Assembly: GCA_021297795.1 (NCBI GenBank) | Contig: JAJTGL010000009.1 | Span: 1-46,757, forward strand | Length of the DNA stretch: 46,757 nucleotides | Reading direction: 5' to 3' | From: Planctomycetaceae bacterium | GTDB lineage: Bacteria > Planctomycetota > Phycisphaerae > Phycisphaerales > SM1A02 | Shown: positions 1 through 36,405 of the stretch, one piece after another | Numbering within the stretch: position 1 is the first letter of the stretch | Layout: each line of letters begins with the position of its first letter | Translations under genes and position numbers: made by a program | Notes under the pieces: generated by a model | The model's database searches: none | What the model was told of the DNA's origin: nothing | What the model saw: the letters and a program-made list of their open reading frames with translations, nothing else

Positions 1-453
1 GCGCGCGCGGCCCAGCAGGCGCAGGAGCGCTTCGGCGCGGATCGCGTGCGCCTGCAGAGGTACGAGCTCCTCTGCGATCAACCCGAGCAGGAACTCGGCG
101 CGATCTTCGACTGGCTCGGGATCGAGCGGCCGGAGAACATGACCGAGGTCCCCGTGCGCAACTCGAGCTACGAACGCTACGCCGACACCGGCGGCTTCGT
201 CCGCGGCGCGATGGACCGGTGGATGAAGACGCTGAGCGCGGCGGAGATCGCCGTGATCGAGCGCTGCTGCGGGAAGCTGCTCGTCCGCACCGGATACGCG
301 AGCGCCGCCCCGCGGGCCGGATTCCTCGGCACGCTTCCGTACTATGCCTCCGCGCTGCCCGCGATCGTGCGCGCCGCGGCGATCAACGCGAAGCGCAGCG
401 GCAATCTGCGCAAGTACATCCTCCGCCGCGCCCGCCTCGTCCTCGGGAGATGA
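1..453 (+). CDS. Sulfotransferase, C-terminal part (5' end outside window)
   Basis: The frame is open from base 1, so this is the last 150 codons of a gene that begins upstream. The piece YELLCDQPEQELGAIFDWLG matches the region of sulfotransferase-3 type enzymes where a conserved Arg-Tyr-Glu precedes a helix recording the subunit end of the PAPS-binding fold. A later part (RGAMDRWMKTLSAAEIAVIE) resembles the usual C-terminal sequence in which the enzyme closes over the nucleotide. The 5'-phosphosulfate loop lies outside the window and cannot be checked. The stop overlaps the start of the next glycosyltransferase by four bases, which places it in the same operon. The likely role is transfer of sulfate from PAPS to a saccharide. 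The acceptor is unknown. Confidence 0.72.
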   Translation, partial: ARAAQQAQERFGADRVRLQRYELLCDQPEQELGAIFDWLGIERPENMTEVPVRNSSYERYADTGGFVRGAMDRWMKTLSAAEIAVIERCCGKLLVRTGYASAAPRAGFLGTLPYYASALPAIVRAAAINAKRSGNLRKYILRRARLVLGR

Positions 454-1415
454 ACATGGACCAGAGGAGCACGCACCCTTCCCCGTCGGTGGACGGAACC
501 CCGGAGGCGAGCATCCTCGTCGTGGGCTACCGAAGCAAGCCGTACATCGAGCGCTGCCTCGAAGGCGCGCTCCGTGCGAGCGAGGGCGAGTCGGTGGAGA
601 TTCTCTTCATCGATTGCTCGGACGACGGCAGCGAGGCGCTCGTCGGCGAGCGCTTCCCGACGGTGCGGGTGCTCGGCTACCGCGGCAACCTCGGATTCGC
701 CCGCGGCAACAACGTGCTCGCGCAGGAGGCGCGCGGACGAAAGCTGCTGCTGCTGAACCCCGATGCGTTCGCCGAGCGCGACGAGATCGCGGCGCTGCTG
801 CGCCTCTCTCGCGCACGACCGGACGCACAGGCATGGGCGGGCATGACGATCCTCCCGGATGGCTCGATCGACGGCGGATCCATCCAGCCGATGCTCGGCG
901 CGGTCCCGCTCCTCCTCGCGCTGTTCGGACTCGCCGGACTCCGTCCCGGCGCCGCCGATCCCAAGCGACGCGAGCCACAGCGCGTGCCGGTCCTCACCGG
1001 CGCCTTCATGCTGGTCGACGCGGAGGTCTGGCGTCGGCTCCGTGGATTCGACGAGCGGTTCTTCATGTACGCGGAGGAGGTCGACCTCTGCCGCCGCATC
1101 TCGTATGCCGGCGGCGCACTGGTCTGCGACCCATCGATCCGCCTGCTGCATGACACCGGCAGCGGCGAGCGACGCACGCCCGCACGCATGCTCAACCGCG
1201 CGCGTGGCAACGCCACGTTCTACCGGAAGCACTTCGGCCCCTGCTGGGCCGCCTGCTGCTGCACGCTGCTCCTTGCCCACGCGACGAGCAGGTTCGTCTG
1301 GGGAAGCCTGACGGGCCGCCGCGGTCACGCCGACAGCTTCGGCGCCATCGTGCGCCGACGCGCGGAGTGGTGGAGCGGGTGGCCGGAGCAACCGGCCGCG
1401 GCGGGGCGGGCATGA
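450..1415 (+). CDS. Family 2 glycosyltransferase (rhamnosyltransferase-like)
   Basis: A GT-A fold glycosyltransferase of 321 residues. Near residue 20 it begins the typical strand SILVVGYRSKPYIERCLEGA. It then has NLGFARGNN and LLLLNPDA, the signature region of WbbL/RfbF-type rhamnosyltransferases, and FFMYAEEVDLCRR near the catalytic base. It probably adds one sugar, plausibly dTDP-rhamnose, to a lipid-linked repeat unit on the cytoplasmic face of the membrane. The ATG at 450 is chosen because it forms an ATGA overlap with the preceding stop; a second ATG at 456 is possible. The next gene also starts by ATGA overlap. It is the only clear GT2 gene in the window, so other glycosyltransferases of this pathway should lie upstream. 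Confidence 0.88.
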   Translation: MNMDQRSTHPSPSVDGTPEASILVVGYRSKPYIERCLEGALRASEGESVEILFIDCSDDGSEALVGERFPTVRVLGYRGNLGFARGNNVLAQEARGRKLLLLNPDAFAERDEIAALLRLSRARPDAQAWAGMTILPDGSIDGGSIQPMLGAVPLLLALFGLAGLRPGAADPKRREPQRVPVLTGAFMLVDAEVWRRLRGFDERFFMYAEEVDLCRRISYAGGALVCDPSIRLLHDTGSGERRTPARMLNRARGNATFYRKHFGPCWAACCCTLLLAHATSRFVWGSLTGRRGHADSFGAIVRRRAEWWSGWPEQPAAAGRA

Positions 1416-2968
1416 GCGGCGGCAAGGCACATCGAGCCCTGCGCTGGTCGTACGCGATGACGTGGGCGACGAAGACCGTCAACATCGTCACGATGATCGT
1501 GCTCGCGCGGATCCTCGGACCCGAGAGCTTCGGAGTGGTCGCGCTCGCCCTCGTCTTCGTCCTCTTCATCGAGATGTTCGCGGAGTCCGGACTCGCGCCG
1601 GCGATCGTGCAGCGCAAGAACCTCTCGCCCGAGGATCTCGACTCGATCTTCTGGCTCAACATCGCGCTCGCGCTTCCGCTCGCGATCCTCGGATACGCCG
1701 CGTCGGATCTGCTGGGGCATCTCGTGTCGGACGAGCAGGTCCCAGGGATGTTTGCGGCGCTCAGCCCATTGATCCTTTTCCGGGGACTCAGCGTCGTGCA
1801 GATGGCGCTCGCGCAGCGCGAGATGCGGTTCAAGGATCTCGCGCTGCGCAGCACGTGCAGCGCCGTCCTCGGCGGCATCGCAGGCGTCTCCTGCGCGCTC
1901 GCGGACGTCGGGATCTGGTCGCTGGTGGCGCAAGCGATCGTCGGAGAGGTCGCCTCCTTCCTCCTGCTCTGGCATCTCGGCGACTGGCGTCCGCGCCTGC
2001 GGTTCGAGCTCCGCCGCGCGACCTCGTTCTTCCGATTCTCCTCCGGCGTCATCGTCTCCCAGATCGCGGTGTTCGCGAGCAACCAGTCCGACGTGCTCGT
2101 GATGGGCGCGATGTTCGGCCCGAAGGCCGTCGGCGTGTTCCGACTCGCGATGCGCGTCGTGAACATCCTCCTCGAGATGCTGGTCCGCCCCGTGCAGGCC
2201 ATCGCGCTTCCGCACCTCTCGCCGCTGCGCGACGACCCCACCTCGCTTCAGCGCGAGGTGCTCGGGCTCATGCGGCTCTCGAGCCTCGCGATGCTTCCCG
2301 CGATGGGCGCGCTGATCGTCGGAGCCGAGGCGCTCACCTCCCTGCTTGGGTCGCGGTGGGAGGCGGCGGCCGCCGCCATGCGCGTCCTCGCCTTCATCGG
2401 CGTCGCAAAGAGCATGTCGTTGCTCACCGGACCGACGATGCTTGCCCTCGGGCGAAGCCATGTGGTCGCGCTCGGGAGCATCGGACAGTGCGCGATCACC
2501 GTGGCCGCCGTCGTCTGCGCGGGCCTCTGGGCGAAGGGGCGAAGCGACGATGATCAAGTGATGGCGGTCGCGGCCGCACGCGCCGGAGTCTTCCTCCTGA
2601 TCGTCATGCCATTCCAGTTGCGCTACATGTCGCGCGCGACGGGGATCGCCCCCGCGAAGATACTGCGCGCGGTCGCCTCCGGCGCGCAGGCGTTCGTGCT
2701 CACCGTCGTGGTCGGATTGGGCGCCGAATACGGAGCGCGATCCCTCGGATTCGACCGCATGGTCGCGATCTGGGCCGGCGCGCTCGCCGGAGCCATCGTG
2801 GCCGGTCTCCTTCTGCTCCGGACACGTCGATTCCTGCCAAAGCGGAAGAAGCGTGGCAAGGATGCGGTCGCGGCAGCAGGCTCACCCGAGGCCGCGACGC
2901 CCGAATCCGGTCGCAGCCAAGCCCTGCCGCCCCTCGAGCCGATGAATCCCGAGGACGGCCGCGCATGA
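1412..2968 (+). CDS. Wzx-type polysaccharide flippase
   Basis: A 518-residue polytopic membrane protein of the MATE/MOP superfamily (polysaccharide transport type). The start MSGGKAHRALRWSYAMTWAT leads into hydrophobic segments, and LARILGPESFGVVALALVFV is the family's first signature. About 12-14 membrane segments are visible, followed by a polar, Lys/Arg-rich cytoplasmic tail of about 60 residues after residue 460. It probably flips lipid-linked repeat units from the cytoplasmic to the periplasmic side for polymerisation. The ATG at 1412 overlaps the upstream stop. The longer open frame from 1367 lies inside the glycosyltransferase gene and is unlikely to be used. It sits between a glycosyltransferase and sulfotransferases, so sulfation may occur before flipping. 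Confidence 0.88.
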   Translation: MSGGKAHRALRWSYAMTWATKTVNIVTMIVLARILGPESFGVVALALVFVLFIEMFAESGLAPAIVQRKNLSPEDLDSIFWLNIALALPLAILGYAASDLLGHLVSDEQVPGMFAALSPLILFRGLSVVQMALAQREMRFKDLALRSTCSAVLGGIAGVSCALADVGIWSLVAQAIVGEVASFLLLWHLGDWRPRLRFELRRATSFFRFSSGVIVSQIAVFASNQSDVLVMGAMFGPKAVGVFRLAMRVVNILLEMLVRPVQAIALPHLSPLRDDPTSLQREVLGLMRLSSLAMLPAMGALIVGAEALTSLLGSRWEAAAAAMRVLAFIGVAKSMSLLTGPTMLALGRSHVVALGSIGQCAITVAAVVCAGLWAKGRSDDDQVMAVAAARAGVFLLIVMPFQLRYMSRATGIAPAKILRAVASGAQAFVLTVVVGLGAEYGARSLGFDRMVAIWAGALAGAIVAGLLLLRTRRFLPKRKKRGKDAVAAAGSPEAATPESGRSQALPPLEPMNPEDGRA

Positions 2969-3873
2969 GCACCCCATCCCTGCTCTTCATCCTCTCGACC
3001 GGCCGCTCGGGGACCACCTCGATCGCCAACATGCTGAGCGCGGTGCCCGGCGCGGTGATCGTGCACGAGCGGAAGCCGAAACTGCTGCCCGAGGCCGTTG
3101 CGGCCCTTCGCGGGTCCATGCCGGAGGCGCAGCTCGTCGAACTGCTGCGCACGACGCGCGATCCCGCGTCGCTCGGCGCCACCACGATCGCCGGCGAAAG
3201 CAATCAGCGCCTCAGCTTCGTGCTGCCGGCGCTGTCGAAGGCGTTCCCCGAGGCCCGCTACATCCTGCTCCAGCGCGACGGCCGCGAGGTGGTGGATTCA
3301 CTGCACCACCGCTGGTGGTACCACCCGCGCGAAGCACACCTCCGGCATCCGACGCTGCGCGAGTGGGCGGAGACGCGCGTGCAGGGAACCGATCTCGCGA
3401 TGCCCGCCGCCGAGTGGGCGGCCATGTCGCCCTTCGCCCGTTGCGCGTGGTACTGGAGCGTCGTCCCCACGCTCGTCCGACGCGACGCGTCGCGTCTCGG
3501 GCTTCCGCTTCTCGAGATCCGACTCGAGGATCTCTCGGCGTCCCGTGCGGCGCTCGAGTCGTTCCTGTTGCTTCCCAGCGGCTCGATCGCCGCACCACCG
3601 CGCTCGAACGCGACGCGATCGGTGCGCCCCTCCTGGCGCGCGTGGTCACCCTCGATGCGCCGCGAATTCGAGCGCCATGCAGGGGCCGAGATGGATCGCT
3701 GCTACGCGGGCTGGCGCGGCGAGTTCCGCTGGTCGTTCGCCGATGAATGCAAGGGCGCGGGCCGGCGCATGATCGGCCTCGCGCGCCTGGCGAAGGTCCA
3801 CGCCATCGCGACCCTTGGACTGCACGGGGCCGCACCAGCGCAGGGACGCTCGCCGGACGGAGACGCCACATGA
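2965..3873 (+). CDS. PAPS-dependent sulfotransferase
   Basis: 302 residues with both PAPS-binding elements of the sulfotransferase family. The 5'-phosphosulfate loop STGRSGTTS is at residues 11-19. The 3'-phosphate region ILLQRDGREVVDSL lies about 85 residues later, with the Arg and Ser expected to grip the 3' phosphate. No signal peptide or membrane segment is seen, so it is probably cytoplasmic, where PAPS is made. The start overlaps the flippase stop by four bases and its own stop overlaps the next sulfotransferase start. It is diverged from its neighbour at 3870, so this does not look like a recent duplication. The polysaccharide context suggests a carbohydrate acceptor, but the acceptor cannot be read from sequence. 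Confidence 0.85.
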   Translation: MSTPSLLFILSTGRSGTTSIANMLSAVPGAVIVHERKPKLLPEAVAALRGSMPEAQLVELLRTTRDPASLGATTIAGESNQRLSFVLPALSKAFPEARYILLQRDGREVVDSLHHRWWYHPREAHLRHPTLREWAETRVQGTDLAMPAAEWAAMSPFARCAWYWSVVPTLVRRDASRLGLPLLEIRLEDLSASRAALESFLLLPSGSIAAPPRSNATRSVRPSWRAWSPSMRREFERHAGAEMDRCYAGWRGEFRWSFADECKGAGRRMIGLARLAKVHAIATLGLHGAAPAQGRSPDGDAT

Positions 3874-4784
3874 ATCCACTTCGATCGATCCGAAGACTGC
3901 TCGGCGCATGGCAGGAGCATCGCCTCGAGCACTCCGACTACCACCGCGGCCCGCATACGAGCGAGGCGGACGGGATCTTCGTGATGGGCTGCGGCCGAAG
4001 CGGAACGACGCTCCTCCGCGGGATGCTCGAGCGACATCCGCGGCTCTGGGGTGGGCCCGAGAGCGGCATCTTCAACCGACCCGTCGATCCGAAGGCGCTC
4101 GCGGACAAGTTCCTCTGGAACCCCGAACGCGCGGCGCGGATCGCGATGGAGACCAACAGCGCCGTGGCGTTCGCCGAGCGGTTCTTCGGAGAGCAGACGC
4201 GCGAGGCGGGCAAGGCGCGCTGGGTCGAGAAGACGCCGAAGCACGTGGTGTGCCTCGGATACCTCCTCGGCGCGTTTCCGAACGCGCGGTTCATCCACAT
4301 GATCCGCGATGGACGAGACGTCGCCTGCTCGCTGCGGAACCACCCGAAGGCCGCGTTCCGCAACGGCAAGGTCGTGCCGCTCAACACCAACAACCCGATC
4401 CCGAAGTGCATCGATCGCTGGGTGCACGACACGAGCGCGGGACTTGCATACCGCGGCCATCCGAGACTGCTCGAGGTGCGATACGAGACGCTGGTCGCCG
4501 ACCCCACCGCGACCGTCCAGAGCGTCTGCCGGTTTCTCGGCGAGACATTCGATCCTGCATGCACCTCGGGCGATGATGCAGGCAAGTCGAACGAGCAGCG
4601 CATGCGCACTCCCAACAACATGTCGAGCTACGGGAAGGTTGGCGATTCGAGCATCGGTCGCTGGCGACGCGATCTCCGCCCCGCCGAACTGGCGGCGTGC
4701 CTCCGCAAGGGCGGCCCGCTCCTCGAGGCCCTCGGGTACTGGGACGGCATCTCCGATGCCCCCGAGCGGCACGGGCCGAACTGA
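3870..4784 (+). CDS. PAPS-dependent sulfotransferase (Stf3/TPST-like)
   Basis: 304 residues. The 5'-phosphosulfate loop FVMGCGRSGTTLLRGML lies at about residues 37-53. EKTPKHV follows near residue 120, a motif typical of the bacterial sulfotransferase-3 group, and then the 3'-phosphate element FIHMIRDGRDVACSL. The C-terminal part has LEVRYETLVADP, equivalent to the RYE segment seen in the first gene of the window. There is no signal peptide. It is the last gene of the overlapping plus-strand run; the next gene begins 136 bases later. Having three such enzymes in one locus suggests sulfation at several positions or on several sugars. Confidence 0.88.
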   Translation: MNPLRSIRRLLGAWQEHRLEHSDYHRGPHTSEADGIFVMGCGRSGTTLLRGMLERHPRLWGGPESGIFNRPVDPKALADKFLWNPERAARIAMETNSAVAFAERFFGEQTREAGKARWVEKTPKHVVCLGYLLGAFPNARFIHMIRDGRDVACSLRNHPKAAFRNGKVVPLNTNNPIPKCIDRWVHDTSAGLAYRGHPRLLEVRYETLVADPTATVQSVCRFLGETFDPACTSGDDAGKSNEQRMRTPNNMSSYGKVGDSSIGRWRRDLRPAELAACLRKGGPLLEALGYWDGISDAPERHGPN

Positions 4785-4920: not shown

Positions 4921-6267
4921 ATGAGACCGCAAGATCGGACAGCATCACCAGCCCGCAAGCCGGGACTGCGCGACGCACGGAGGCTCGACCCGCTGCAGGA
5001 GGACACTCCTGTCACCGCGCTCGAACTGTTCGAGGACATCGTGTTCGGCTTTCGGCTCACGCAGAGTCCGCGCGCCTCGCGCATGGCCGAGGCCTGGATG
5101 CCCGTGCAGACGCATGCTGCAACCCATGCTGCAACCCATGCTGCAACCCATGCTGCAACCCTCGACCCGCTTGGCTCGCGCATCGCCGAACTGGTGGATC
5201 CCGAGACCGCGCTCGAACTGACCGGCGGATCCGACTGCCGCTTGCTTCTCTCGCTGATCCTCGCCTCCGGAACCCCCATCGAGCGGGCATTCACGCTCGA
5301 TCTCGGCGACGGCGACGATGCCATGGTCGGCCGGGCGATCGCGGAGGCGCTCGGACTCGAGCACCTCGTCGTGCGGCCCGCGATCACATCGGCGCGTGCG
5401 ATGGAGGATGCGATCCTCTTCACGCGGGCGAGCGGCTGGTCATGCAACGCGGTGAGCTACGGATGGATGCCGGGGGTCTATCGACAACTCGCCGGCTTCC
5501 GGAAGTCGCAGATCGGCGGCGTCGGCGGCGAGATCGCCACGGGGTTCTTCCGAACTCCGCTCGACCGCTTCGCATGCTGCCCCTGCTTCGTCGGGAGCTG
5601 GCGCAGGTTCCGGCTCCAGCGGCCGGCTGCATGGCTCCACCTCTTCCGCCCGGAAGTCCGTCGGCATCTCGCCGCACTCTCGGCGGCGAGCGTCGACGCG
5701 TACTTCGCGGGCAGCCGGAGCTGCGACGCGTGGCGCGAGCGATCCGACGCGTTCTACCTCGAACGACGCATACGGCATTGGGCGGCTCCGGTCCTCACCG
5801 CGTCGAGCCGCTGGTACGAGCCACGCATGCCGTTCCTCACCGACGAATACCTGGGGTGGGCACGGTCGGTGCCGCCCCGGGATCGATCGCGCGGACGGCA
5901 GCACCGCGTCACCGCCGAGTATCTCGCGCGCGCGAGCGCGAGCGGATTCCTCGATGCGCGCGGCCACGCGGCGCTCTTCACGCGCCCGAATCCCACGCGC
6001 TCCGGAAAGTTGCGACGAGCGATCGCGCGACTCATGGCGAAGCCAAGGCCTGCTCCGATGGTGTACCGGGAGTTCGCCGTGGCCCTTGCCGGTGACGAGC
6101 GCCTTCGCAGCGCGATCAGGGCGCTTGCCGAACGCGGAGGCCCTCACGACCTCGGACTGGACCGCGCTGCCGTCGAACGGCTGCTTGCCGCGCCGCAGGA
6201 GGCCTGCTTCGAGTTCGGTGCGGTCGCGACCGCCGCCTGCTCGCGCCTCGATCCGATGCGGCCGTAG
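4921..6267 (+). CDS. Asparagine-synthase-like protein, no glutaminase domain
   Basis: 448 residues. TGGSDCRLLLSLI at about residue 101 matches the ATP-pyrophosphatase loop of asparagine synthases (normally SGGxDS), here with Thr for the first Ser and Cys for the last. The following FTLDLGDGDDAMVGRAIAEALG and GGVGGEIATGFF also fit that domain. There is no N-terminal glutaminase domain; the first 90 residues are unrelated and include the HAAT repeat described separately. Relatives in O-antigen loci are thought to amidate sugar acids, so a role in modifying the polymer is plausible, but the altered loop makes catalysis uncertain. The ATG at 4921 has GAGG close upstream (short spacing). The 136 bases before it are less GC-rich and may carry a promoter. 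It converges on rfbB. Confidence 0.68.
   Translation: MRPQDRTASPARKPGLRDARRLDPLQEDTPVTALELFEDIVFGFRLTQSPRASRMAEAWMPVQTHAATHAATHAATHAATLDPLGSRIAELVDPETALELTGGSDCRLLLSLILASGTPIERAFTLDLGDGDDAMVGRAIAEALGLEHLVVRPAITSARAMEDAILFTRASGWSCNAVSYGWMPGVYRQLAGFRKSQIGGVGGEIATGFFRTPLDRFACCPCFVGSWRRFRLQRPAAWLHLFRPEVRRHLAALSAASVDAYFAGSRSCDAWRERSDAFYLERRIRHWAAPVLTASSRWYEPRMPFLTDEYLGWARSVPPRDRSRGRQHRVTAEYLARASASGFLDARGHAALFTRPNPTRSGKLRRAIARLMAKPRPAPMVYREFAVALAGDERLRSAIRALAERGGPHDLGLDRAAVERLLAAPQEACFEFGAVATAACSRLDPMRP
5113..5160 (+). repeat. Four perfect 12-bp tandem repeats within a gene
   Basis: The unit CATGCTGCAACC occurs four times without a mismatch or gap. It lies inside the asparagine-synthase-like gene and encodes the peptide unit His-Ala-Ala-Thr. 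Because the unit is a multiple of three, gain or loss of copies would lengthen or shorten a linker before the catalytic domain without breaking the frame. No spacer separates the copies, so it is not a CRISPR array. Confidence 0.97.
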
Positions 6268-6304: not shown

Positions 6305-7414
6305 CTAGGCGCGCTTGCCGTAGTTCGTCTCGATCCAGTTGCGGTACGACCCGTCCATGACGGCGCGCCACCAAGCCTCGTTCGAGAGATACCACGCGAT
6401 GGTCTTCGCAAGACCCGTCTCGAACGTCTCGTGCGGGCGGTAGCCGAGCTCGGCGCGCGCCCTGCGCGGATCGATCGCGTAGCGACGGTCGTGGCCGGGC
6501 CGATCCTTGACGTAAGTCACGAGCGACCAGCACGGCTTACCCTGCGCCGCCGGCGAACCCGGGAACCGGCCCGCGAGGGTCGCGTCGGCCGCGAAAGCGG
6601 CGTCGATTGCGCCGGTGAGCCGCTGCACGATCTCGAGGTTGGGTCGCTCGTTCTCGCCGCCGATGTTGTAGACCTCTCCGACGCGCCCCTTCTCGAGCGC
6701 GAGCGAGATGCCGCGGCAGTGGTCGTCGACGTGCAGCCAGTCGCGCACGTTCATGCCGTCGCCGTAGATCGGAAGCGGCTTGCCGTGCAGGCAGTTCACG
6801 ATCATGAGCGGAATCAGCTTCTCGGGGAACTGGTACGGACCGTAGTTGTTCGAGCAGTTGGTCGTCGTCACGTCGAGGTGGAACGTGTGGTGGTACGCGC
6901 GCACGAGGTGATCGCTCGCCGCCTTGCTCGCGGAGTACGGCGAGTTCGGCTGGTACTGATTGGTCTCTGCGAACGGCGGATCCGTCGGCGAGAGCGATCC
7001 ATAGACCTCGTCGGTCGACACGTGGTGGAACCGGTGCGGCATGCCGGTTCCGGCGAGCCAGACCGTGCGCGCCGCCTTCAGCAGCGAGTGCGTGCCGTTC
7101 ACGTTCGCATCGATGAATGCGTCGGGACCGGAGATCGAGCGATCGACGTGGCTCTCCGCCGCGAAATGCACCAGCGTCGCGATGCCGTGGTCGCGCAGCA
7201 ACCGCTCGACGAGCGCCGTGTCGCGGATGTCGCCGTGCACGAAATCGACGCGCGATGGATCGCAACCCGCGAGGTTTGCCCGGTTGCCCGCATACGTCAG
7301 GGCGTCGAGCACCACCACGCGTTCGGTCGCGTGCTCGGCAAGCCGATGACGGATGAAGTTGGCGCCGATGAAACCGGCGCCGCCGGTGACGAGGATGGTC
7401 TTGGACTGGCTCAT
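6305..7414 (-). CDS. rfbB: dTDP-glucose 4,6-dehydratase
   Basis: 369 residues, an extended short-chain dehydrogenase. The NAD-binding loop TGGAGFIGANF is at residues 10-20. The catalytic STDEVYG holds Thr-Asp-Glu at 134-136, and Tyr160 and Lys164 form the YxxxK pair. SNNYGPYQFPEKLIP and GDGMNVRDWLHVDDH are diagnostic of RfbB/RmlB. It converts dTDP-glucose to dTDP-4-keto-6-deoxyglucose, the second step of dTDP-L-rhamnose synthesis. It is the last gene of the long minus-strand operon, 39 bases after rfbD. The protein is slightly longer than the common length of about 350. It converges with the asparagine-synthase-like gene; the 37 bases between them show no convincing terminator. Confidence 0.96.
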   Translation of the reverse strand: MSQSKTILVTGGAGFIGANFIRHRLAEHATERVVVLDALTYAGNRANLAGCDPSRVDFVHGDIRDTALVERLLRDHGIATLVHFAAESHVDRSISGPDAFIDANVNGTHSLLKAARTVWLAGTGMPHRFHHVSTDEVYGSLSPTDPPFAETNQYQPNSPYSASKAASDHLVRAYHHTFHLDVTTTNCSNNYGPYQFPEKLIPLMIVNCLHGKPLPIYGDGMNVRDWLHVDDHCRGISLALEKGRVGEVYNIGGENERPNLEIVQRLTGAIDAAFAADATLAGRFPGSPAAQGKPCWSLVTYVKDRPGHDRRYAIDPRRARAELGYRPHETFETGLAKTIAWYLSNEAWWRAVMDGSYRNWIETNYGKRA

Positions 7415-7453
7415 GCGGCTCTCGGGGTGGTCGCGTGTCTGCGTGGTCGCGGG

Positions 7454-8350
7454 TCAGATATCGGCGATCCGGCCGGGAAACTCCATCCGCGCGAGGACCG
7501 ATCGCAGCTCCTCGCGCCAGTGGCGCGCAGGGCCGATCACGGCCCACGTCGCATCCTTCGACAGGAGGCTCATCGCCGGTCGGCGTGCCGGGGTCGGATA
7601 GTCCTCCGTCCGGATCGGAGTGACCCGCGCCCTGCCGATCTTGTCGGCGCCCAGCGCCGCAGCCTCCTCGCGGATCGCGACGGCGAAGTCGTACCAGCTC
7701 GCGACCCCTGCGTCGGTCCAGTGGTGCACGCCCACGGCACCTGCGGCGGCGAGGGACCAGAGCGCCCGAGCGAGCCCGGTCGCGCTCGTCGGCGTGCCCA
7801 CCTGATCGGCGACCACACGCACCTCCTCGCGCTCGTGCATCAGCCGCAGCATCGTCGCGACGAAATTCCGCCCGTGATGCGCGTAGACCCACGCGGTGCG
7901 CACGACCAGAGCGTCGGCGGCTCGAAGCGCGGCGGCCTCGCCGTCGCGCTTCGTCCGTCCGTACACGGAGGCCGGCGCGGTCGGGTGGTGCGGCTCGTAT
8001 GCGACGGGAGAGAGTCCGTCGAACACGTAGTCGGTCGAGACGTGGACGAGCCGGCCGGTGCAGGAGGTCGCCGCCTCCGCGAGGTACCCGACGGCGAGAT
8101 GGTTGACGCGATCCGCGACATCCGCCTCCTTCTCGGCCAGATCGACCGCCGTGTAGGCGGCCGCGTTGAGGATGATGTCGGGTGCGATGTCGCGCACCGC
8201 GCCGAGAACCGCATCGCGGTCGGTGATGTCGAGCTCCGTCGCTCCGAGCGCGCGCACCTCCACGCCGGCCGGCGCCGTCGCCACAAGCTCGCGCGACAGC
8301 TGTCCGCCCATGCCGGTGACCAGCGCCCTTCGCAACGCACGCGCGCTCAT
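7454..8350 (-). CDS. rfbD: dTDP-4-dehydrorhamnose reductase
   Basis: 298 residues. It has the N-terminal nucleotide-binding loop LVTGMGGQLSREL, then NAAAYTAVDLAEKE, STDYVFDG, and the catalytic YGRTK with Tyr and Lys in the expected order. These are the hallmarks of RmlD/RfbD, which uses NADPH or NADH to make dTDP-L-rhamnose in the last step of the pathway. The ATG at 8350 is chosen because it overlaps the rfbC stop by four bases; the open frame continues further upstream only as an out-of-phase shadow of rfbC. The order rfbA-rfbC-rfbD-rfbB differs from the common BDAC order but keeps the full pathway in one operon. Confidence 0.95.
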   Translation of the reverse strand: MSARALRRALVTGMGGQLSRELVATAPAGVEVRALGATELDITDRDAVLGAVRDIAPDIILNAAAYTAVDLAEKEADVADRVNHLAVGYLAEAATSCTGRLVHVSTDYVFDGLSPVAYEPHHPTAPASVYGRTKRDGEAAALRAADALVVRTAWVYAHHGRNFVATMLRLMHEREEVRVVADQVGTPTSATGLARALWSLAAAGAVGVHHWTDAGVASWYDFAVAIREEAAALGADKIGRARVTPIRTEDYPTPARRPAMSLLSKDATWAVIGPARHWREELRSVLARMEFPGRIADI

Positions 8351-8907: not shown

Positions 8908-8925
8908 GTCTCGTCGTCCGTGGGA

Positions 8926-28340: not shown

Positions 28341-29951
28341 ATGAAGCGAAACCGACTCATTCAGAATCCACGGTTCCTGCGCACAATTTCACTTGTTCTC
28401 GGAACAATCGGCATCCTTACAGGTGATAGCCTCGCGTCCAGCGTCACGGAAGGCATCTCGGGGGGCTTCCAGGCACGAGGCCTCGAGGCGCAGATCGAGG
28501 AGGCGGCGAACGCGTCCGGACTGGGGCGGTCGCTCAGCTACTCCGTCGTGCGGGTCTCCGATGGCGCGACCATTTCCGAAGGCAACAGCGGTCTTCCGTT
28601 CAAGCCCGCGAGCAACCTCAAGGTGTTCACCTCCGGCGAGGCACTCGCCGAGCTCGGTGCGGATTTCCGATTCCGCAACTCGATCCGCTTCGACGCCGCG
28701 ACGGCCCGCGTGACGGTCGTCGGCTGCGGTGATCCCGCCCTCGGCGATCCCGAGGCGCTCGCGCGGAACCCGGTCGTCGATGCAGCAGGAAACGTGCACC
28801 CCAGAGTGCGCGCCGACCAACTCGTCGGCTGGTGGGCTGATCAGGTCGTGGCGGCCGGCGCCACGCGCATCAGTGAACTGGTGATCGATGCGCGCGTGTT
28901 CGATTCCGTCTGCTACAACCCGACTTGGCCATCGGACCAACGCACCCGTCCCTACTGCGCCGAGGTCTGGGGGTTCAACTTCCACGCCAACATGATGTTC
29001 ATCGGCGCCGCGGCGCGGAGCGGAAAGGTCGCGATCGACCGCATGGAGCCCGCGTTCGACTGGACCGTGGCACGCAACACCGCGCAGGCCGGACCTGCGA
29101 AATCCAAGTCCACGTTCGTGGTCACCCGAAACGCAACCTCGAGCAACCTCACGATCTCCGGCCGTCTGCCCTCGGGCGAGCGAGCCGACGTCGATCTCTC
29201 CGTGCACGACGCGCCGAGCCTCTTCGCCGAGTTGCTCGCTCGCGCGCTTCGCGCCCGTGGCGTGGAGGTCGGGACCGCTCGCGTGGCGACATCGACAGAT
29301 CCGGCACCGGCCGGCGCGACCGTCGGCGTGATCGAGACCCCGATCGCGGTCGTGCTCAAGCGCACGAACACCGACAGCGCGAATCTCTACGCCGAGAGCC
29401 TGCTCAAGCGCCTTGGCGCCGCACGGGCGAACCGCGGCGGCGCAACTGAGCCGGGACCGGGGTGGATCGCCGGCTCCTGGGCGAACGGAACCGCCGCACT
29501 GCGGGATTCGGTTGTGGAGCGGATCGGCTCCCGCGCTGAGGGATTCGTCTTTGCCGACGGCTGCGGCCTGTCGCACTCGAATCGCGTGACCGCGGGCGGA
29601 ACCGCCGCATGGCTCCGGTCGATCGCACTCGACCATCGGATCGCCGGCACCTTCCGCGACAGCCTCGCCGTCGCGGGCGAGAGCGGCACCGTGAAGGCGC
29701 GGTTCGGACCGATTGCCGCAAGCCCGGTGCGAGTCCACTGCAAGACTGGCTACATCAACGGTGTCAGCACGCTCAGCGGCCTGATCACCGCACCCTCAGG
29801 CGAGCAACTCGCCTTCAGCATCCTTGCGAACGGACTGGAAAAGGTCGGGACCGATCGGGCGAGGAAGGCACAAGAGGCGATCGTGACGCACGCCGTACGC
29901 TGGCTCGAGGCAAACACGACTGCCCGTACGCAGGCGACCGCAGAGCCCTGA
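28341..29951 (+). CDS. dacB: D-alanyl-D-alanine carboxypeptidase/endopeptidase, PBP4 type
   Basis: 536 residues with an N-terminal signal sequence (hydrophobic core about 13-27). All three penicillin-binding motifs are present: Ser91-Asn-Leu-Lys94 in KPASNLKVFTSG, Ser346-Ala-Asn348 in TDSANLYAESLLK, and Lys468-Thr-Gly470 in CKTGYINGVSTLSG. FADGCGLSHSNRVT is typical of peptidase family S13. It trims or cuts peptidoglycan cross-links in the periplasm. It is transcribed divergently from the sorting-tag gene, with 238 bases between them that are less GC-rich than the surroundings. The Shine-Dalgarno sequence is weak (GGGA five bases before the ATG). It is followed after ten bases by the permease. 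Confidence 0.93.
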   Translation: MKRNRLIQNPRFLRTISLVLGTIGILTGDSLASSVTEGISGGFQARGLEAQIEEAANASGLGRSLSYSVVRVSDGATISEGNSGLPFKPASNLKVFTSGEALAELGADFRFRNSIRFDAATARVTVVGCGDPALGDPEALARNPVVDAAGNVHPRVRADQLVGWWADQVVAAGATRISELVIDARVFDSVCYNPTWPSDQRTRPYCAEVWGFNFHANMMFIGAAARSGKVAIDRMEPAFDWTVARNTAQAGPAKSKSTFVVTRNATSSNLTISGRLPSGERADVDLSVHDAPSLFAELLARALRARGVEVGTARVATSTDPAPAGATVGVIETPIAVVLKRTNTDSANLYAESLLKRLGAARANRGGATEPGPGWIAGSWANGTAALRDSVVERIGSRAEGFVFADGCGLSHSNRVTAGGTAAWLRSIALDHRIAGTFRDSLAVAGESGTVKARFGPIAASPVRVHCKTGYINGVSTLSGLITAPSGEQLAFSILANGLEKVGTDRARKAQEAIVTHAVRWLEANTTARTQATAEP

Positions 29952-29961: not shown

Positions 29962-31740
29962 ATGGAAGCATCCGCGATCATCGCGCTCGTCTGCGTCGGC
30001 ATCACGCTCGCGCTCCTCGTTCGGGGGCGCATCGCGAACGACATCGTGATGGCGGGCGGCATCGGCCTCCTCGTGCTTACCGGATCGCTGACCCCGAAGG
30101 ACGCCTTCTCGGGCCTCGCCAGCCCCTCGATCATCACGATCGCGCTCCTGCTCGTGGTATCGCAGGGCGTGATCGAGACCGGCCTCATCCAGTGGGTCGG
30201 CCCGGCGCTCTTCGGTCGGGCGAAGTCGGTCGCCGTCGCACAGGCGAGGCTCATGATCCCGGTTGCCGCGATCTCCGCGTTCATCAACAACACGCCCCTC
30301 GTCGCGATGTGCATCCCGGTCGTCCAGGACTTCTCGAAGCGCACGAAGATCGCGCCCGGAAAGCTCTTCATCCCGCTCACCTACGCGGCCACCCTCGGCG
30401 GCGTCTGCTCGCTGATCGGAACGAGCACGAACCTCGTCGTGAACGAGATGTGGACGAAGTCGGGCCGCGAGTCGTTCGCGCTGTTCGACATCGCGCCAGT
30501 CGGCATCCCCGTTGCCATCGCGGGCATCGCTTACATCCTCATCGCCGGACGATGGCTGCTGCCCGAAAGCGGAAAGGTCGAGCTCTCGACCTCGGATCCA
30601 CGCAGCTACACGGTCGAGATGCTCGTCGCGGGCGCACCCATCGCCGGCAAGTCGGTCGAGGGCGCGAACCTCCGCGGCCTCGAGGGCCTCTACCTTGCGG
30701 AGATCGCGCGCGGCGACGAGATCATCTCGCCGGTCGAACCGACGACCATGCTGGCGACGGGCGATCGTCTCTTCTTCGTCGGCGACGTGGCGAGCGTGGT
30801 GCAGCTTCAGAAGCTGCGCGGCCTCGCGCCGGCGACCGATCAGGTCGCGAAGCTCGGCCGCGACCGCTTCCGCCGCTTCCTCGTCGAGGCGGTCGTCAGC
30901 GACTCGAGCCCCCTGCTCGGAAAGACGCTGCGCGAATCCCGGTTCCGCAACGTCTACGGCGCGGTCGTGATCGCGATCTCGCGGAACGGCGCGCGCATCG
31001 AGAACACCAAGCTCGGCACCGTCGTCCTCAAGGAGGGCGACGTGCTCCTCCTCGAGACGAAGGAGGCGTTCGTCAACGCCTACGGGGCATCGCGCGACTT
31101 CCTGCTCGTGCGTCGCATCGAGGATTCGGAGCCGGTGCGGCACGAGCGCGCGCCGATCGCCGGGCTGATCCTCCTCGGCGTGATCCTCACGGCGACGTTC
31201 CAGCCCTTCGGATTCGAGATGTTCCACGCCGCGCTCGCCGGCGCCGGCCTCATGATCGCCACCCGCTGCTGCACGGGCGCGCAGGCGCGCCGCGCGCTGA
31301 ACGTGCGGCTCATCTTCGTGATCGCGGGCTCGATCGCGCTCGGCACTGCCCTGGAGAAGTCCGGGGTGGCCGGGTTCTTTGCAGAGAAACTCGCCGCCAT
31401 CAGCGCCGGCAACATGCTTGCCACGATCGCGGCACTCTATTTCGCCACCTTCATCCTCACCGAACTTCTCTCGAATGCGACGGCCGCCGCGCTCGTCTTC
31501 CCGATCGCGCTCAACGCGGCGACCGCTGAGTCCGGCGGATTCGATCCGACGTTCGCCGCGATCATCGTGATGTTCGGAGCGAGCGCGAGTTTCGCGACAC
31601 CGATCGGCTACCAGACGAATCTCATGGTGCAGGGCCCGGGCGGCTACCGGTTCTCCGACTACATGAAGATCGGACTCCCGCTTGGACTGATCACCGGAAC
31701 CGTGGCCGTCACCGCGATCTGGATCATGGCGCGAACGTGA
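29962..31740 (+). CDS. SLC13-family permease with two RCK_C (TrkA_C) domains
   Basis: 592 residues. Membrane segments at the N- and C-terminal ends flank a soluble central part (about 200-390) made of two TrkA_C-like domains, for example VEMLVAGAPIAGKSVEGANL and LVEAVVSDSSPLLGKTLRES. The membrane half has FINNTPLVAMCIPVVQDFSK and SLIGTSTNLVVNEMW, and later ASFATPIGYQTNLMVQGPGG, the paired SLC13/ArsB transporter signatures. Similar proteins include the sulfate-related SAC1/SLT transporters of algae and cyanobacteria. With cysQ next and sulfate-activation genes beyond, sulfate import is a reasonable inference, although dicarboxylate or arsenite transport cannot be excluded from sequence. Confidence 0.85.
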   Translation: MEASAIIALVCVGITLALLVRGRIANDIVMAGGIGLLVLTGSLTPKDAFSGLASPSIITIALLLVVSQGVIETGLIQWVGPALFGRAKSVAVAQARLMIPVAAISAFINNTPLVAMCIPVVQDFSKRTKIAPGKLFIPLTYAATLGGVCSLIGTSTNLVVNEMWTKSGRESFALFDIAPVGIPVAIAGIAYILIAGRWLLPESGKVELSTSDPRSYTVEMLVAGAPIAGKSVEGANLRGLEGLYLAEIARGDEIISPVEPTTMLATGDRLFFVGDVASVVQLQKLRGLAPATDQVAKLGRDRFRRFLVEAVVSDSSPLLGKTLRESRFRNVYGAVVIAISRNGARIENTKLGTVVLKEGDVLLLETKEAFVNAYGASRDFLLVRRIEDSEPVRHERAPIAGLILLGVILTATFQPFGFEMFHAALAGAGLMIATRCCTGAQARRALNVRLIFVIAGSIALGTALEKSGVAGFFAEKLAAISAGNMLATIAALYFATFILTELLSNATAAALVFPIALNAATAESGGFDPTFAAIIVMFGASASFATPIGYQTNLMVQGPGGYRFSDYMKIGLPLGLITGTVAVTAIWIMART

Positions 31741-31798
31741 GACGCGCCCCGTGCTCCGCCCATCGACAAACCGAAGACCCGTCACTCGAGAGCCCACC

Positions 31799-32785
31799 AT
31801 GCAAGATGCCATTCTCGCCGCGATGAAGGACGCCGTCCTCAAGGCGGCCGTCGCCACCCGATCCGTGCACGCCTCGACCGCGATCGACGGCGTGTCGAAG
31901 GACGACAAGAGCCCGGTGACCGTCGCCGACTGGGCGAGCCAGGCCGTGGTGTCGCTCGAGCTCGCGCGCGCCGGACATGGCGCGATTCCGCTGGTCGGCG
32001 AAGAGGAGGCCGCGACGCTGCGCGCCCCCGAGAGCGCCGCGTTGCGCGCCCGCGTGGTCGAGGCGGTCGGACGCGCGCTGGGACCGGTCGGCGAGGATGC
32101 CGTCCTCACCGCGATCGATCGCGGCCGCGCAACGCCTGGAGCGCGCTTCTTCACGCTCGATCCGGTCGACGGCACGAAGGGCTTCCTGCGCCGACAGCAG
32201 TACGCGATCTCGCTTGCGCTCATCGAACAGGGCAACGTGGTCGCCGGCGTGGTGGGATGCCCGAACCTGCCGGCCGCCGGGACCAACTACGACGAGGCCG
32301 ATGCGCTGGGAACCCTTGCGTGGGCGACGCGGGGTGGCGGCGCATTCGGATGCGCAGGCGACCAGACGTCACGCGCGCGGCGACTCTCGATCGCGCCGTG
32401 GAGCGCGGGCTCGCCGGTCCGCGCCTGCGAGTCGGTCGAGAGCGGACACTCGAAGCAGGATCTCTCCGCCGAACTGCTCGCGGAGCTCGGCAGCCCCGGC
32501 ACTCCGGCGCGGCTCGACAGCCAGTCGAAGTACGTGGTCGTCGCGCGTGGCGGAGCCGATGCCTATCTCCGTCTTCCCACGAAGAAGGACTATCGGGAGA
32601 AGATCTGGGATCACGCGGCGGGCGCGCTCGTCGCGAGCGAGTCGGGCGCACGCGTCTGCGACGTCGACGGAAAGCCGCTCGACTTCAGCCAGGGTCGCGA
32701 ACTGACGACGAACCGTGGCGTCTTCGCAGGCCACCCCGATGCGGTGGCGCTGCTGGTCGAGGCGTTCCGGCGACGCGGGCTCTGA
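31799..32785 (+). CDS. cysQ: 3'(2'),5'-bisphosphate nucleotidase (PAP phosphatase)
   Basis: 328 residues of the lithium-sensitive phosphatase family. The metal-binding residues are in DKSPVTVADWASQ, VGEEEA, LDPVDGTKGF (the family signature) and IWDHAAGALVASESG. It removes the 3' phosphate of PAP, the by-product left by sulfotransferases (and of PAPS), relieving product inhibition. The ATG at 31799 is preferred; the open frame extends 16 codons upstream from 31751, but that stretch shows no family similarity. It is 58 bases after the permease. A dedicated PAP phosphatase close to PAPS-synthesis genes and in the same window as three sulfotransferases is a coherent set. Confidence 0.9.
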   Translation: MQDAILAAMKDAVLKAAVATRSVHASTAIDGVSKDDKSPVTVADWASQAVVSLELARAGHGAIPLVGEEEAATLRAPESAALRARVVEAVGRALGPVGEDAVLTAIDRGRATPGARFFTLDPVDGTKGFLRRQQYAISLALIEQGNVVAGVVGCPNLPAAGTNYDEADALGTLAWATRGGGAFGCAGDQTSRARRLSIAPWSAGSPVRACESVESGHSKQDLSAELLAELGSPGTPARLDSQSKYVVVARGGADAYLRLPTKKDYREKIWDHAAGALVASESGARVCDVDGKPLDFSQGRELTTNRGVFAGHPDAVALLVEAFRRRGL

Positions 32786-32856: not shown

Positions 32857-33468
32857 CTATCGCACGATGCCACGTGCACGAAGCTGCTCGATCAGCCCCG
32901 ACGCGGCTGCGTCCGGGGTCAGTCGGTGCGACTCGAGCAGGATCTCGGGCTGCTCGGGCCTCTCGTAGGGTTGATGGATGCCGGTGAAGTCCTTGATCTC
33001 GCCGGCACGCGCCTTCCGGTAGAGCCCCTTCGGGTCGCGCGACTCGGCCACCTCGAGCGGCACGTCCACGAACGCCTCGAGGAACGGGATCTGCCACTCG
33101 TCGTGCAGGGCACGCACCTGCGCGCGATCGGCACGGAACGGACTGACGAGGCTCGCGAGGACGATGACTCCTGCGTCCGCGAGAATCCGGCAGACTTCCC
33201 CGGTGCGCCTGACGTTTTCGCGGCGATCCTCCGCCGAGAACCCGAGGTTTCGGTTGAGCCCATGGCGAAGATTGTCACCATCGACCCGATAGCAGAGCCG
33301 CCCGGAGCCGACGAGCAGCGATTCGACAGCGACTGCGATCGTGCTCTTGCCCGAGCCCGAGAGGCCCGTGAACCAGATCGTCGCACCCCGCTGACCGAGA
33401 ATCCGCTCTCGGTCCGGTCGGGAGACCGAGCCGCCGTGCCAGACGACATTCGTCGATTTTTCGACCAT
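32857..33468 (-). CDS. cysC: Adenylylsulfate (APS) kinase, stand-alone
   Basis: 203 residues. Walker A GLSGSGKS is at 35-42. [18 protein letters not shown] at 61-78 is the canonical APS-binding segment, followed by [17 protein letters not shown] and [31 protein letters not shown] matches the lid loop. It phosphorylates APS to PAPS, the donor for sulfotransferases. The ATG at 33468 has GAGG six bases upstream; a GTG at 33480 is less likely. It is divergent from cysD across a short region that may hold a shared control site. Unlike the kinase domain of the downstream fusion, it retains all expected residues, so it is probably the main PAPS source here. Confidence 0.95.
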
Positions 33469-33504
33469 GGGAAACCTCACATTGCGCCGTTCGTCGACCG
33501 ATGA

Positions 33505-33519
33505 CCGATACCCTATCGG
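33505..33519. promoter_or_regulatory. Inverted repeat between divergent cysC and cysD
   Basis: CCGATA-CCC-TATCGG lies in the 68 bases separating the cysC start (33468) from the preferred cysD start (33537). Its position in a divergent sulfate-activation promoter region would suit a shared operator. The arms are only six bases long, so this is tentative. Confidence 0.3.
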
Positions 33520-33536
33520 CCCTTTGGAACGCGCGC

Positions 33537-34463
33537 ATGGAAGAAACGAGACTCACACATCTGAAGGAACTCGAGGCGGAGAGCATCCAGATCTTCCGCG
33601 AGGTGGTCGCGAGCTTTGAGCGACCCGTGATGCTCTACTCGATCGGCAAGGACTCGGCGGTGCTGCTGCACCTCGCCATGAAGGCCTTCTACCCCGCCAA
33701 GCCCCCCTTCCCGCTCCTCCACGTCGACACCACGTGGAAGTTCAAGGAGATGTACAAGCTCCGCGACGAGTACGTCGGGAAGGAGCTCGGCCTCGACCTG
33801 ATCGTCTACAAGAACGAGGAGGGCCTGCGCGCGGGCATCAATCCGATCACCCACGGATCGCGCAAGCACACCGACGTCATGAAGACGCAGGCGCTGAAGC
33901 AGGCGCTGGACAAGCACGGCTTCGACGCCGCCTTCGGTGGCGCGCGCCGCGACGAGGAGAAGTCGCGCGCGAAGGAACGTGTCTTCAGCTTCCGCGACCG
34001 GCAGCACCGCTGGGATCCGCGCAACCAGCGCCCCGAGCTCTGGAACATCTACAACACCGAGGTCAACCGTTCTCCCGGGCAGCTGGGCGAGTCGATCCGG
34101 GTGTTCCCGCTGTCGAACTGGACCGAACTCGACGTCTGGCAGTACATCTGGCTCGAGAACATCCGCATCGTGCCGCTCTACTTCGGCGCGGTGCGTCCGG
34201 TGGTCTATCGCCACGGCGTCCCGATCATGGTCGACGACGACCGGCTGCCGCTCGAACCAGGCGAGCAGCCGCAGATGAGGATGATCCGCTTCCGCACGCT
34301 CGGCTGCTACCCGCTCTCGGGTGCGATCGAGTCGCCTGCGGCGACGCTGCCCGAGATCATCAAGGAGATGCTGCAGGCGACGCAGAGCGAGCGCCAGGGC
34401 CGCGTCATCGACCACGATGCCGCGGGCAGCATGGAGGAGAAGAAGAAGGAAGGCTACTTCTGA
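33537..34463 (+). CDS. cysD: Sulfate adenylyltransferase subunit 2
   Basis: 308 residues from this start. [20 protein letters not shown] and [20 protein letters not shown] are the CysD N-terminal and PP-loop sequences. [29 protein letters not shown] and LGCYPLSGA also match. With CysN it makes APS from ATP and sulfate, the GTPase of CysN driving the reaction. The ATG at 33537 is chosen because the protein then begins like known CysD proteins (about 302 residues); an earlier ATG at 33501 would add 12 residues and has no ribosome-binding site. Its stop TGA shares one base with the cysN start, so the two are translationally coupled. Confidence 0.95.
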
Positions 34464-36405
34464 TGCGCGCCGATTCGAACGCAGCCGAGCAGGAACTGAT
34501 CGAGAAGGACATCGAGGCGTACCTCTCGCGTCACGAGAACAAGGAACTCCTCCGCTTCCTCACCTGCGGGTCCGTCGACGACGGCAAGAGCACCCTCATC
34601 GGGCGCCTGCTGCACGACACCCACATGATCCACGAGGATACGCTGAAGGCCGCCGAGCGCGACTCGAAGTCGATGGGCACCCAGTCGGGTGCGCTCGACC
34701 TCGCGCTGCTCGTCGACGGCCTCAAGAGCGAGCGCGAGCAGGGCATCACGATCGACGTCGCGTACCGCTACTTCACCACCGCGGCGCGCAAGTACATCAT
34801 CGCCGACACGCCGGGCCACGAGCAGTTCACGCGCAACATGGCGACCGGCGCCAGCACCTGCGACCTCGCGATCCTCCTGATCGACGCGCGCCACGGCGTC
34901 GCCGTGCAGACGCGGCGGCACTCGTTCATCACGAGCCTCCTCGGGATCCGCGAGATCGTTGTCGCGGTGAACAAGATGGATCTCGTCGACAACTCGCAGG
35001 CGCGGTTCGACGAGATCGTGGCCGACTACAAGGCCTTTGCCGCGAAGCTTCCGGCGCGCAACATGCGGTTCATCCCGATGTCGGCGCTCAACGGCGACAA
35101 CGTCGTGCACCGCAGTGCGTCGATGCCGTGGTACACGGGGCCGACGCTCCTCGAGCACCTCGACACCGTCCCACTCGCTGGCCGCCGCAACCTCGTCGAC
35201 TTCCGTTTCCCCGTGCAGTGGGTGAACCGGCCGAACCTCGACTTCCGCGGCTTCACCGGCACGGTCGCTGGCGGCTGCGTGAAGCCAGGCGACCGCGTGA
35301 TGGTGCTTCCGTCGCGGAAGACGTCGACCGTCACCCGCATCGTGACCTTCGATGGCGATCTCGCACAGGCAACGCCCCCGCTTTCGGTCACGCTCACGCT
35401 CGCGGACGAGATCGACTGCGCGCGCGGCGACATGCTTGTCCACCCGGGCAACGAGCCGCACGTTGCGCAGGACGTCTCCAGTCGCCGCTCGTCCAGGGCA
35501 AGGAGTACATCCTCAAGCACGGGCCGAACAAGACGCCGGCGAGCATCACCGCGGTCGTCCACCGCGTCGACGTGAACACGCTCGACCGCTCGGCGGCACC
35601 CGCGCTCGCCCTCAACGACATCGGTCAGGTGCGCATCCGCACCAGCCGGCCGCTCGTCTACGACGGCTACACGAAGAACCGCGCGACCGGTGCGTTCATC
35701 CTCATCGACCGACTCACCAACATGACGGCGGGCGCAGGCATGCTGCTCGATCCGTCCGAGGCTGGAGACGGTCACTGGCAGGACACGCCGCAGGGCGGAC
35801 ACCTCGCGCCCTCGGGCCGCGTGGTGAGCGCCGAGGAGCGCGAGAAGCGCCTCGGACAGAAGCCGTTCACGATCCTCTTCACCGGCCTCTCGGGCTCGGG
35901 CAAGACGGAGATCGCGCGCGCGGTCGAACGAAGACTCTTCGATCTCGGTCGCTTCGGCGCCGTCGTCGACGGCCCCGCGCTCCGCTCGGGCATGAGCCGT
36001 GACCTCGGTTTCTCCCGCGCCGACCGCTCGGAGAACCTCCGCCGCGGCATGGAGCTCGCGAAGGCGATGAACGAGATCGGCCTGGTGGTGCTCGCGAGCT
36101 TCACCGCCCCCGACGCCTCGGTGCGTGCGAAGGCACGTGAACTCGTCGGTGGCGCCCAGTTCGCGCTCGTCCACGTGTCGACACCGCTCGACGCGTGCCG
36201 ACGGCGCGATCCGGTGGGTCTCTACCGCGACGCCGCGCAGGGCTCGGTCAAGGATGTTCCGGGCGTCGACTTCGAGTACGACCAGCCGTCGGACGCGGAT
36301 CTCACGATCCCGTTCCACGATCTGGGAGCACCCGATGTGGCGATCCGCACCGCCGTCGAGCGCGTGATGGCGCTGCTCGACGCGCGTGGCGTGATCCGGA
36401 AGTAG
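34463..36405 (+). pseudogene. cysNC: CysN-CysC fusion (sulfate adenylyltransferase GTPase + APS kinase), frameshifted
   Basis: The first part (34463 to the frame's stop at 35575) is CysN up to about residue 337: [36 protein letters not shown] and a domain-2 segment ending [17 protein letters not shown]. Homology then jumps to another frame near 35480 ([20 protein letters not shown]), continues through CysN domain 3 (TGAFILIDRLTNMTAGAGML) and ends in an APS kinase domain ([20 protein letters not shown]) at 36405. Compared with CysN relatives, about 22 bases are missing at the junction, removing the conserved EAMxxWM strand and shifting the frame. A translated protein would stop after about 205 junk-free bases at most past the break. 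The kinase domain has DGPALRSGM where DGDNxRHGL is usual. This could be a genuine loss or a sequence error. Confidence 0.85.

Follow-up and report, generated by a model that had tools for sequence, protein, structure and literature searches.

Sulfate activation probably retained for sulfation beside a polysaccharide cluster in a planctomycete lineage

Where does activated sulfate go in a bacterium whose sulfate-activation genes lie beside a polysaccharide cluster carrying its own sulfotransferases? This question is raised by contig JAJTGL010000009.1 of the Planctomycetaceae bacterium assembly GCA_021297795.1 (Phycisphaerales, SM1A02), a stretch of 46,757 nucleotides (hereafter the window). It makes up the entire contig C83 of a metagenome-assembled genome (MAG) of 3.2 Mb, which is 83% complete and consists of 147 contigs. 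A first interpretation, made from the letters and their reading frames (the sequence-only reading), had proposed that the window's cys genes are dedicated to supplying 3′-phosphoadenosine-5′-phosphosulfate (PAPS) for sulfation of an exopolysaccharide and do not feed cysteine synthesis. Since the lineage has sulfate-activation genes and seems to be without reduction genes, the sulfate donor probably goes to surface sugars or proteins. In our judgement the sulfation branch of sulfur metabolism has quite likely been retained here without the reduction branch, the window's cluster being one PAPS consumer.

The sulfate genes named by the sequence-only reading, namely an SLC13-type permease, CysC, CysD, CysN and a second adenosine-5′-phosphosulfate (APS) kinase domain, are present, with details corrected (Table 1). 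In the PDB the permease matched VcINDY (E 9e-21); its match to Solute carrier family 13 member 1 was weaker (E 4e-8). SLC13A1 carries sulfate, and we infer that the permease is probably a sulfate importer. The gene called CysQ does encode a nucleotidase for 3′-phosphoadenosine-5′-phosphate (PAP), which is of the HAL2/SAL1 type: it scored above the HAL2 cut-off and below that of CysQ (PDB SAL1, E 6e-64). CysC was moved to the minus strand; a plus-strand open reading frame (ORF) at 32926-33504 was ruled out as CysC, having no Pfam match. CysC and CysD are divergently transcribed (window 32857-33501), with about 20-32 bases between the likely starts. The domains of the CysN-CysC fusion are there, but they do not form a single open frame because the contig lacks, near 35478 (window 35440-35520), 25 bp that five relatives have. 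CysD is intact, and the CysN frame, broken here, is unbroken at that site in the five relatives.

Two APS kinase domains were compared by alignment of 11 genomes of the window's genus (own genome included). In the fused domain (35866-36405), 11/11 had lost the SPFR-like motif, the second Asp of DGD and the KGLY Lys, and in the stand-alone CysC both DGD and KGLY were retained in 11/11. These residues matter for APS kinase catalysis. In G020 the kinase domain is intact within a 681-aa frame and is the sole APS kinase match of that genome. Elsewhere in the window's genome (G000:C72:18111-18545) lies a third APS-kinase-like gene, whose divergent product of about 180 aa shares 34% identity with CysC. 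A CysD tree of 43 rows (28 relatives, own genome included, and 15 of 80 CysD-relative loci) joined the genus with G031 (100/98); its deeper branches, to proteobacterial and other CysD, were not resolved, and no claim on horizontal transfer is therefore made.

The following route is proposed. Sulfate would enter via the SLC13 permease and be converted to APS by CysDN, after which the stand-alone CysC would convert APS to PAPS. Sulfotransferases would consume PAPS, and the HAL2/SAL1-type phosphatase would clear the resulting PAP. The three sulfotransferases of the window (ST1, ST2 and ST3) would most likely sulfate the cluster's lipid-linked repeat unit in the cytoplasm, with export of the unit by the flippase after sulfation. 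Other sulfotransferases of the genome would be further PAPS consumers.

Reduction genes were searched in the own genome and in relatives. The window's genus comprised 16 genomes, including its own (G000). Sulfite reductase (NIR_SIR, PF01077) was searched in a 61-genome set, composed of 37 genomes of the window's family (f1, own genome included) and, from other families of the order, 13 genomes of f2-f4 and 11 of f5-f6. The sequence-only reading had seen no PAPS or sulfite reductase beside the cys genes, and the genome check agreed: the own genome gave no NIR_SIR match, and its single PAPS_reduct (PF01507) match was CysD itself. NIR_SIR was found in none of the 37 f1 genomes, several of which are 95-99% complete, and in none of the 13 f2-f4 genomes, whereas the identical search detected it in 11/11 f5-f6 genomes and in 11/14 control genomes. 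Strong CysH-like matches (at least 137 bits, away from CysD) occurred only in f5-f6 (11/11), and all strong PAPS_reduct matches in f1 lay at CysD positions. No route was found by which the module would lead to cysteine, and with NIR_SIR at 0/37 no close relative held the cys genes in a complete cysteine operon.

The genes that make and use PAPS were widespread in the same genomes. APS kinase was found in 33/37 f1 genomes (57/61 overall). Sulfotransferases, searched genome-wide with the PF13469 model only, were found in 35/37 (58/61 overall), in G016 only at E 7e-4. An ATP sulfurylase was detected in 32/37 f1 genomes, CysD in 23 and Sat in 9, never both; those with neither were G018, G023, G025, G026 and G030. 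The nine genomes with Sat in place of CysD belong to other genera and also have APS kinase and PF13469 matches. Sat, APS kinase and PF13469 were present together in 13/13 f2-f4 genomes. G030 (97% complete) gave no match to APS kinase, ATP sulfurylase or PF13469, and in G041 (f6), which has the genes for PAPS and for reduction, PF13469 gave no match.

It is very improbable, in our estimate, that the cys module persists as a leftover of housekeeping, or feeds reduction through an unrecognised reductase, with the polysaccharide neighbourhood incidental. This explanation draws on a few weak PAPS_reduct matches and on G003 and, within the stretches fetched, four genomes outside the genus, in which the cys genes have no polysaccharide neighbours. 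It is opposed by the NIR_SIR counts (0/50 in f1-f4 against 11/11 in f5-f6), by the retention of APS kinase, which makes PAPS, in 46/50 f1-f4 genomes, and by the coinciding absences of sulfotransferase and APS kinase in a larger sample of 151 f1 genomes, given below.

Synteny of the cys module with the polysaccharide cluster, as anticipated by the sequence-only reading, was found in most of the genus. Genomes of the genus were considered informative when they had sequence upstream of CysC. The SLC13 permease and/or the PAP phosphatase adjoined the cys genes in 12/13 (G000, G001, G002, G005, G007, G008 and G010-G015; not G003), and the cluster's genes for polysaccharide or secreted proteins were linked to the cys module in 9/10 (G000, G001, G002, G007, G008 and G011-G014; not G003). 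Contigs of G005, G010 and G015 end too early for the second count and those of G004, G006 and G009 for both, G006 being uninformative because its contig stops just past CysC. Outside the genus, G031 retains the order rmlB-S13-SLC13-phosphatase-CysC-CysD-CysN; in the stretches fetched from G017, G020, G032 and G034, the cys genes had no polysaccharide neighbourhood.

In G007, G012 and G013 one contig each carries, in the window's order, thiG, rpsB, tsf, GT2, rml, TPR and most of the exosortase cluster, followed by S13, SLC13, PAP phosphatase, CysC, CysD, CysN and CysNC. Between GT2 and rmlB, G007 and G013 have a methyltransferase; in G012 a beta-helix protein adjoins GT2. No match to ST1-ST3 was found in these three blocks by tblastn. 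Ten ORFs of the G007 block, compared with all of Pfam, included no sulfotransferase, most other ORFs of the three blocks being unscanned. The PF13469 matches of these genomes are located on other contigs.

These blocks bear on the word "dedicated", which could not be kept. A truly dedicated unit, in which the cys module serves only this cluster's sulfated polymer, would fit the linkage in 9/10 congeners and the three sulfotransferases of the window cluster. The linkage nevertheless persists in G007, G012 and G013, where no sulfotransferase was detected in the block, and the own genome has a single ATP sulfurylase found against 10 PF13469 matches on 6 contigs. In addition, G003 has its cys genes without polysaccharide neighbours, and APS kinase and PF13469 also accompany Sat in f1. 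The two gene groups are not regarded as a dedicated pair, because three congeners keep the linkage without a detected cluster sulfotransferase and because all 16 genomes of the genus carry sulfotransferase matches on other contigs. We consider a dedicated unit very improbable.

The sulfotransferases themselves were as first described: three genes, of which one is cut by the contig edge and two have intact loops, as verified with PF13469 and a motif check. ST1 is incomplete because the contig begins inside the gene. Its orthologues in G001, G005, G011 and G015 are 72-77% identical, and the one in G001 (72%) is a complete PF13469 member (E 7.6e-22). The motifs GRSGTT and RDGRxxxxSL, which we take to be the PAPS loops, are intact in ST2 and ST3. 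Single-sequence structure prediction of ST2 gave a predicted local distance difference test score (pLDDT) of 35. The 10 PF13469 matches listed for the own genome included ST3 and neither ST1 nor ST2. Sulfotransferases of about 500 aa were observed outside the window on contigs C147 and C43 of G000, and the one scanned (C147) has TPR repeats; both are possible further PAPS users.

The acceptor of the window's sulfotransferases may be a sugar, in a putative sulfated polymer, or a protein. These enzymes might modify proteins instead of a polysaccharide, for example by tyrosine sulfation of exosortase-processed or dockerin proteins, in which case PAPS would still serve sulfation only. In the PDB, ST3 indeed matches protein-tyrosine sulfotransferases best (E about 1e-12), and an exosortase and secreted proteins lie within the block. 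On the other hand, the only NCBIfam match of ST3 was NoeE (E 9e-16, far below the model's cut-off), a Nod-factor sugar sulfotransferase, and orthologues of ST1, ST2 or ST3 adjoin GT2 and/or the flippase in five congeners (G001, G002, G005, G011 and G015). The order is tsf, ST1, flippase, ST3, rmlB in G001 and tsf, ST1, GT2 in G005 and G011; a short contig of G002 carries GT2-flippase-ST2-ST3, and in G015 ST1-GT2 is close to a contig end. Modification of proteins is considered unlikely, and a sugar acceptor is preferred.

The co-occurrence of sulfotransferases and APS kinase favours a sulfation branch retained alone, and the limits of the test count against it. In the 151 f1 genomes, sampled evenly from a bigger group and scored for PF13469 and APS kinase (one of the two scorings took at most 23 candidates per genome), APS kinase had no match in 13 and a weak one only in 7, and PF13469 had no match in 7. 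A match was called weak at E above 1e-10, so that G172 (9e-11) was counted as having APS kinase. Strong APS kinase was absent from 6/7 genomes without and 14/144 with PF13469 (Fisher p 1.7e-5), and from 3/4 and 6/94, respectively, of those at least 90% complete (p 0.002), in a test that ignores shared ancestry between relatives that are not independent, with a cut chosen after the data were seen and with MAG gaps that inflate joint absence. Counting only genomes with no match weakens the co-occurrence (3/7 versus 10/144, p 0.014). Several other points weigh against a sulfation branch retained alone with the window's cluster as a consumer. In G018, PF13469 matched five times, APS kinase and ATP sulfurylase not at all. 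Unexplained PF01507 matches of about 50 bits occur in G002 (C304), G030 (C1) and G055 (C29). To these are added the PDB matches of ST3, the tblastn result for the three linked blocks and the frameshift in the window's own CysN, where the 25-bp gap is either a true deletion or a fault of assembly. Further weak, unexplained PF01507 matches were seen in G009 (a fragment, 34 bits) and in G013, G022 and G028 (about 20 bits). The scores near 50 bits are far below those of CysH or CysD.

The remaining genes of the window are listed in Table 1. A glycosyltransferase, a flippase and a full dTDP-rhamnose pathway had been noted, and family matches established all of them (GT2, PF13440 and rmlB/D/C/A). 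The sequence-only reading did not name the other cluster genes, those for the polyprenyl-phosphate sugar transferase, tyrosine autokinase, EpsI-like protein, exosortase, acyltransferase and asparagine-synthase-like proteins. With three sulfotransferases inside a Wzx/Wzy-type cluster that also has GT2, flippase, sugar transferase and autokinase, the window resembles the xss cluster discussed below. The exosortase and the EpsI-like protein are both supported by Pfam, and the putative sorted substrate is recognised only by inspection of its tail, a C-terminal hydrophobic stretch followed by RRRK. A dockerin match (PF00404, E 7e-5) was observed at window 36436-37191 and a dockerin-like repeat, by inspection only, at 22710-24689. 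An Rfam scan of the window gave nothing at gathering score, and no tRNA was found in it.

Table 1. Annotated features of the window, with the match or observation on which each rests.
Feature	Position	Strand	Evidence
Sulfotransferase ST1, C-terminal part	1..453	+	PF13469 E 0.008, below cut-off
GT2 glycosyltransferase	450..1415	+	PF00535 E 1.3e-8
Flippase (Wzx-type)	1367..2968	+	PF13440 E 8e-70
Sulfotransferase ST2	2965..3873	+	PF13469 E 8e-9, above cut-off
Sulfotransferase ST3	3870..4784	+	PF13469 E 1.7e-32
Asparagine-synthase-like protein (weak)	5083..6267	+	PF00733 E 5e-4, below cut-off
rmlB, rmlD, rmlC, rmlA (dTDP-rhamnose)	6305..9807	-	Family matches
Large TPR protein of cluster	9804..14081	-	PF14559 E 4e-13
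Polyprenyl-phosphate sugar transferase	14091..15500	-	PF02397 E 4e-59; TIGR03025 E 1e-69, below its cut-off
Chain-length/tyrosine autokinase	15566..17863	-	TIGR01007 E 8e-23, below cut-off
EpsI-like protein	17860..18717	-	PF11984 E 1.7e-9, above cut-off
Exosortase	18714..19556	-	PF09721 E 6e-48; TIGR02602 above cut-off
Wzy/ligase-like membrane protein (by position and appearance only)	20542..22032	-	No family match; relatives in block
Hexapeptide acyltransferase	24888..25538	-	PF00132 E 4e-14
Second asparagine-synthase-like protein (by inspection)	25655..26857	-	No family match; relatives in block
Secreted protein, PEP-CTERM-like tail (by inspection)	27389..28102	-	No family match; relatives in block
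S13 D-Ala-D-Ala carboxypeptidase	28341..29951	+	PF02113 E 8e-65
SLC13-type permease with TrkA_C domains	29962..31740	+	PF03600, PF02080, PF00939
3′(2′),5′-bisphosphate (PAP) nucleotidase, HAL2/SAL1 type	31751..32785	+	TIGR01330 270.9 bits, cut-off 267.05
Stand-alone APS kinase CysC, motifs intact	32857..33480	-	PF01583 E 1.7e-64; alignment
CysD, ATP sulfurylase small subunit	33501..34463	+	TIGR02039 E 3e-148
CysN, GTPase part with a frame break near 35478	34463..35575	+	TIGR02034 E 1e-153
CysN third domain and fused degenerate APS kinase domain	35482..36405	+	NF004035 E 2e-88, below cut-off as part; PF01583 E 1e-46

The closest named CysD relatives were MAGs, most of them labelled planctomycetes, and several isolates have names that point to lakes or ponds; the exceptions among the labels were Candidatus Kuenenia (two), Phycisphaera sp. 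(one) and uncultured bacterium (one). The window may belong to the family of the lake Phycisphaerae known as Nemodlikiaceae or CL500-3, a placement suggested by the naming of Lake Zurich MAGs. In the available sections of a study of lake planctomycetes, sulfate transport (ABC, SulP) and complete assimilatory reduction are reported only for Planctomycetaceae (PMC6461901). This fits an absence of reduction in the window's class, and those sections do not mention sulfate activation, SLC13 or sulfotransferases; cohesin/dockerin modules in lake planctomycetes are described (PMC6461901). In Shark Bay mats most planctomycete orders were without sulfotransferase genes by BLAST at 30% identity, according to the sections available (PMC9723792); in contrast, sulfotransferases are common in the window's order.

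Parallels were found in three systems, each known to us from part of the respective paper. The xss cluster for synechan in Synechocystis 6803 is, like the window, a Wzx/Wzy-type cluster with sulfotransferases, and synechan contains rhamnose and sulfate (PMC8205485). It is plasmid-borne and has two sulfotransferases and eight glycosyltransferases, and PAPS is not mentioned in the main text as available. Unlike xss, the window has exosortase genes and a linked sulfate-activation module, and no sulfate reduction was detected in its genome. Entamoeba likewise directs sulfate through PAPS to sulfotransferases and has no APS/PAPS reductase genes in the account available; it uses a sodium/sulfate symporter and carries a non-functional fusion of ATP sulfurylase and APS kinase, the activities that are also joined in the window's CysN-CysC (PMC6801973). 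That system is eukaryotic and mitosomal and makes sulfolipids, whereas the window is bacterial, of the CysDN type and beside a polysaccharide cluster. Pontiella, like the window's organism a member of the Planctomycetes-Verrucomicrobia-Chlamydiae (PVC) superphylum, has PF13469 sulfotransferases, one of them in a glycosyltransferase cluster, and its sulfated glycosaminoglycan-like polymer was measured, which sets a precedent in the superphylum (PMC7356697). It differs in being a marine anaerobe of the Kiritimatiellae, and the sections available describe no PAPS-supply module, the word PAPS being absent from the main text.

Sulfated polysaccharides have reportedly been described in few bacteria other than cyanobacteria: the authors of the synechan study, in the text available, knew of no polysaccharide clusters with sulfotransferases outside that group (PMC8205485), Pontiella being one exception. 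In a search of open-licence papers, neither the titles listed nor the text available described planctomycetes that retain sulfate activation for sulfation. A broader proposal, to which we give an even chance, is that several planctomycete families of one order have kept sulfate activation purely for sulfation, reduction having been lost or never acquired. Sat and CysDN would have been swapped with the PAPS output kept, the CysNC kinase of this genus would be non-catalytic and its work done by the lone CysC, and the organisms would depend on reduced sulfur while exporting sulfate on surface glycans. If true, a lineage that supplies PAPS, clears PAP and carries many sulfotransferases, with no sulfate reduction detected, would be a clean natural case of sulfate activation serving sulfation alone, and it would be predicted to need reduced sulfur and to bear a sulfated surface coat.

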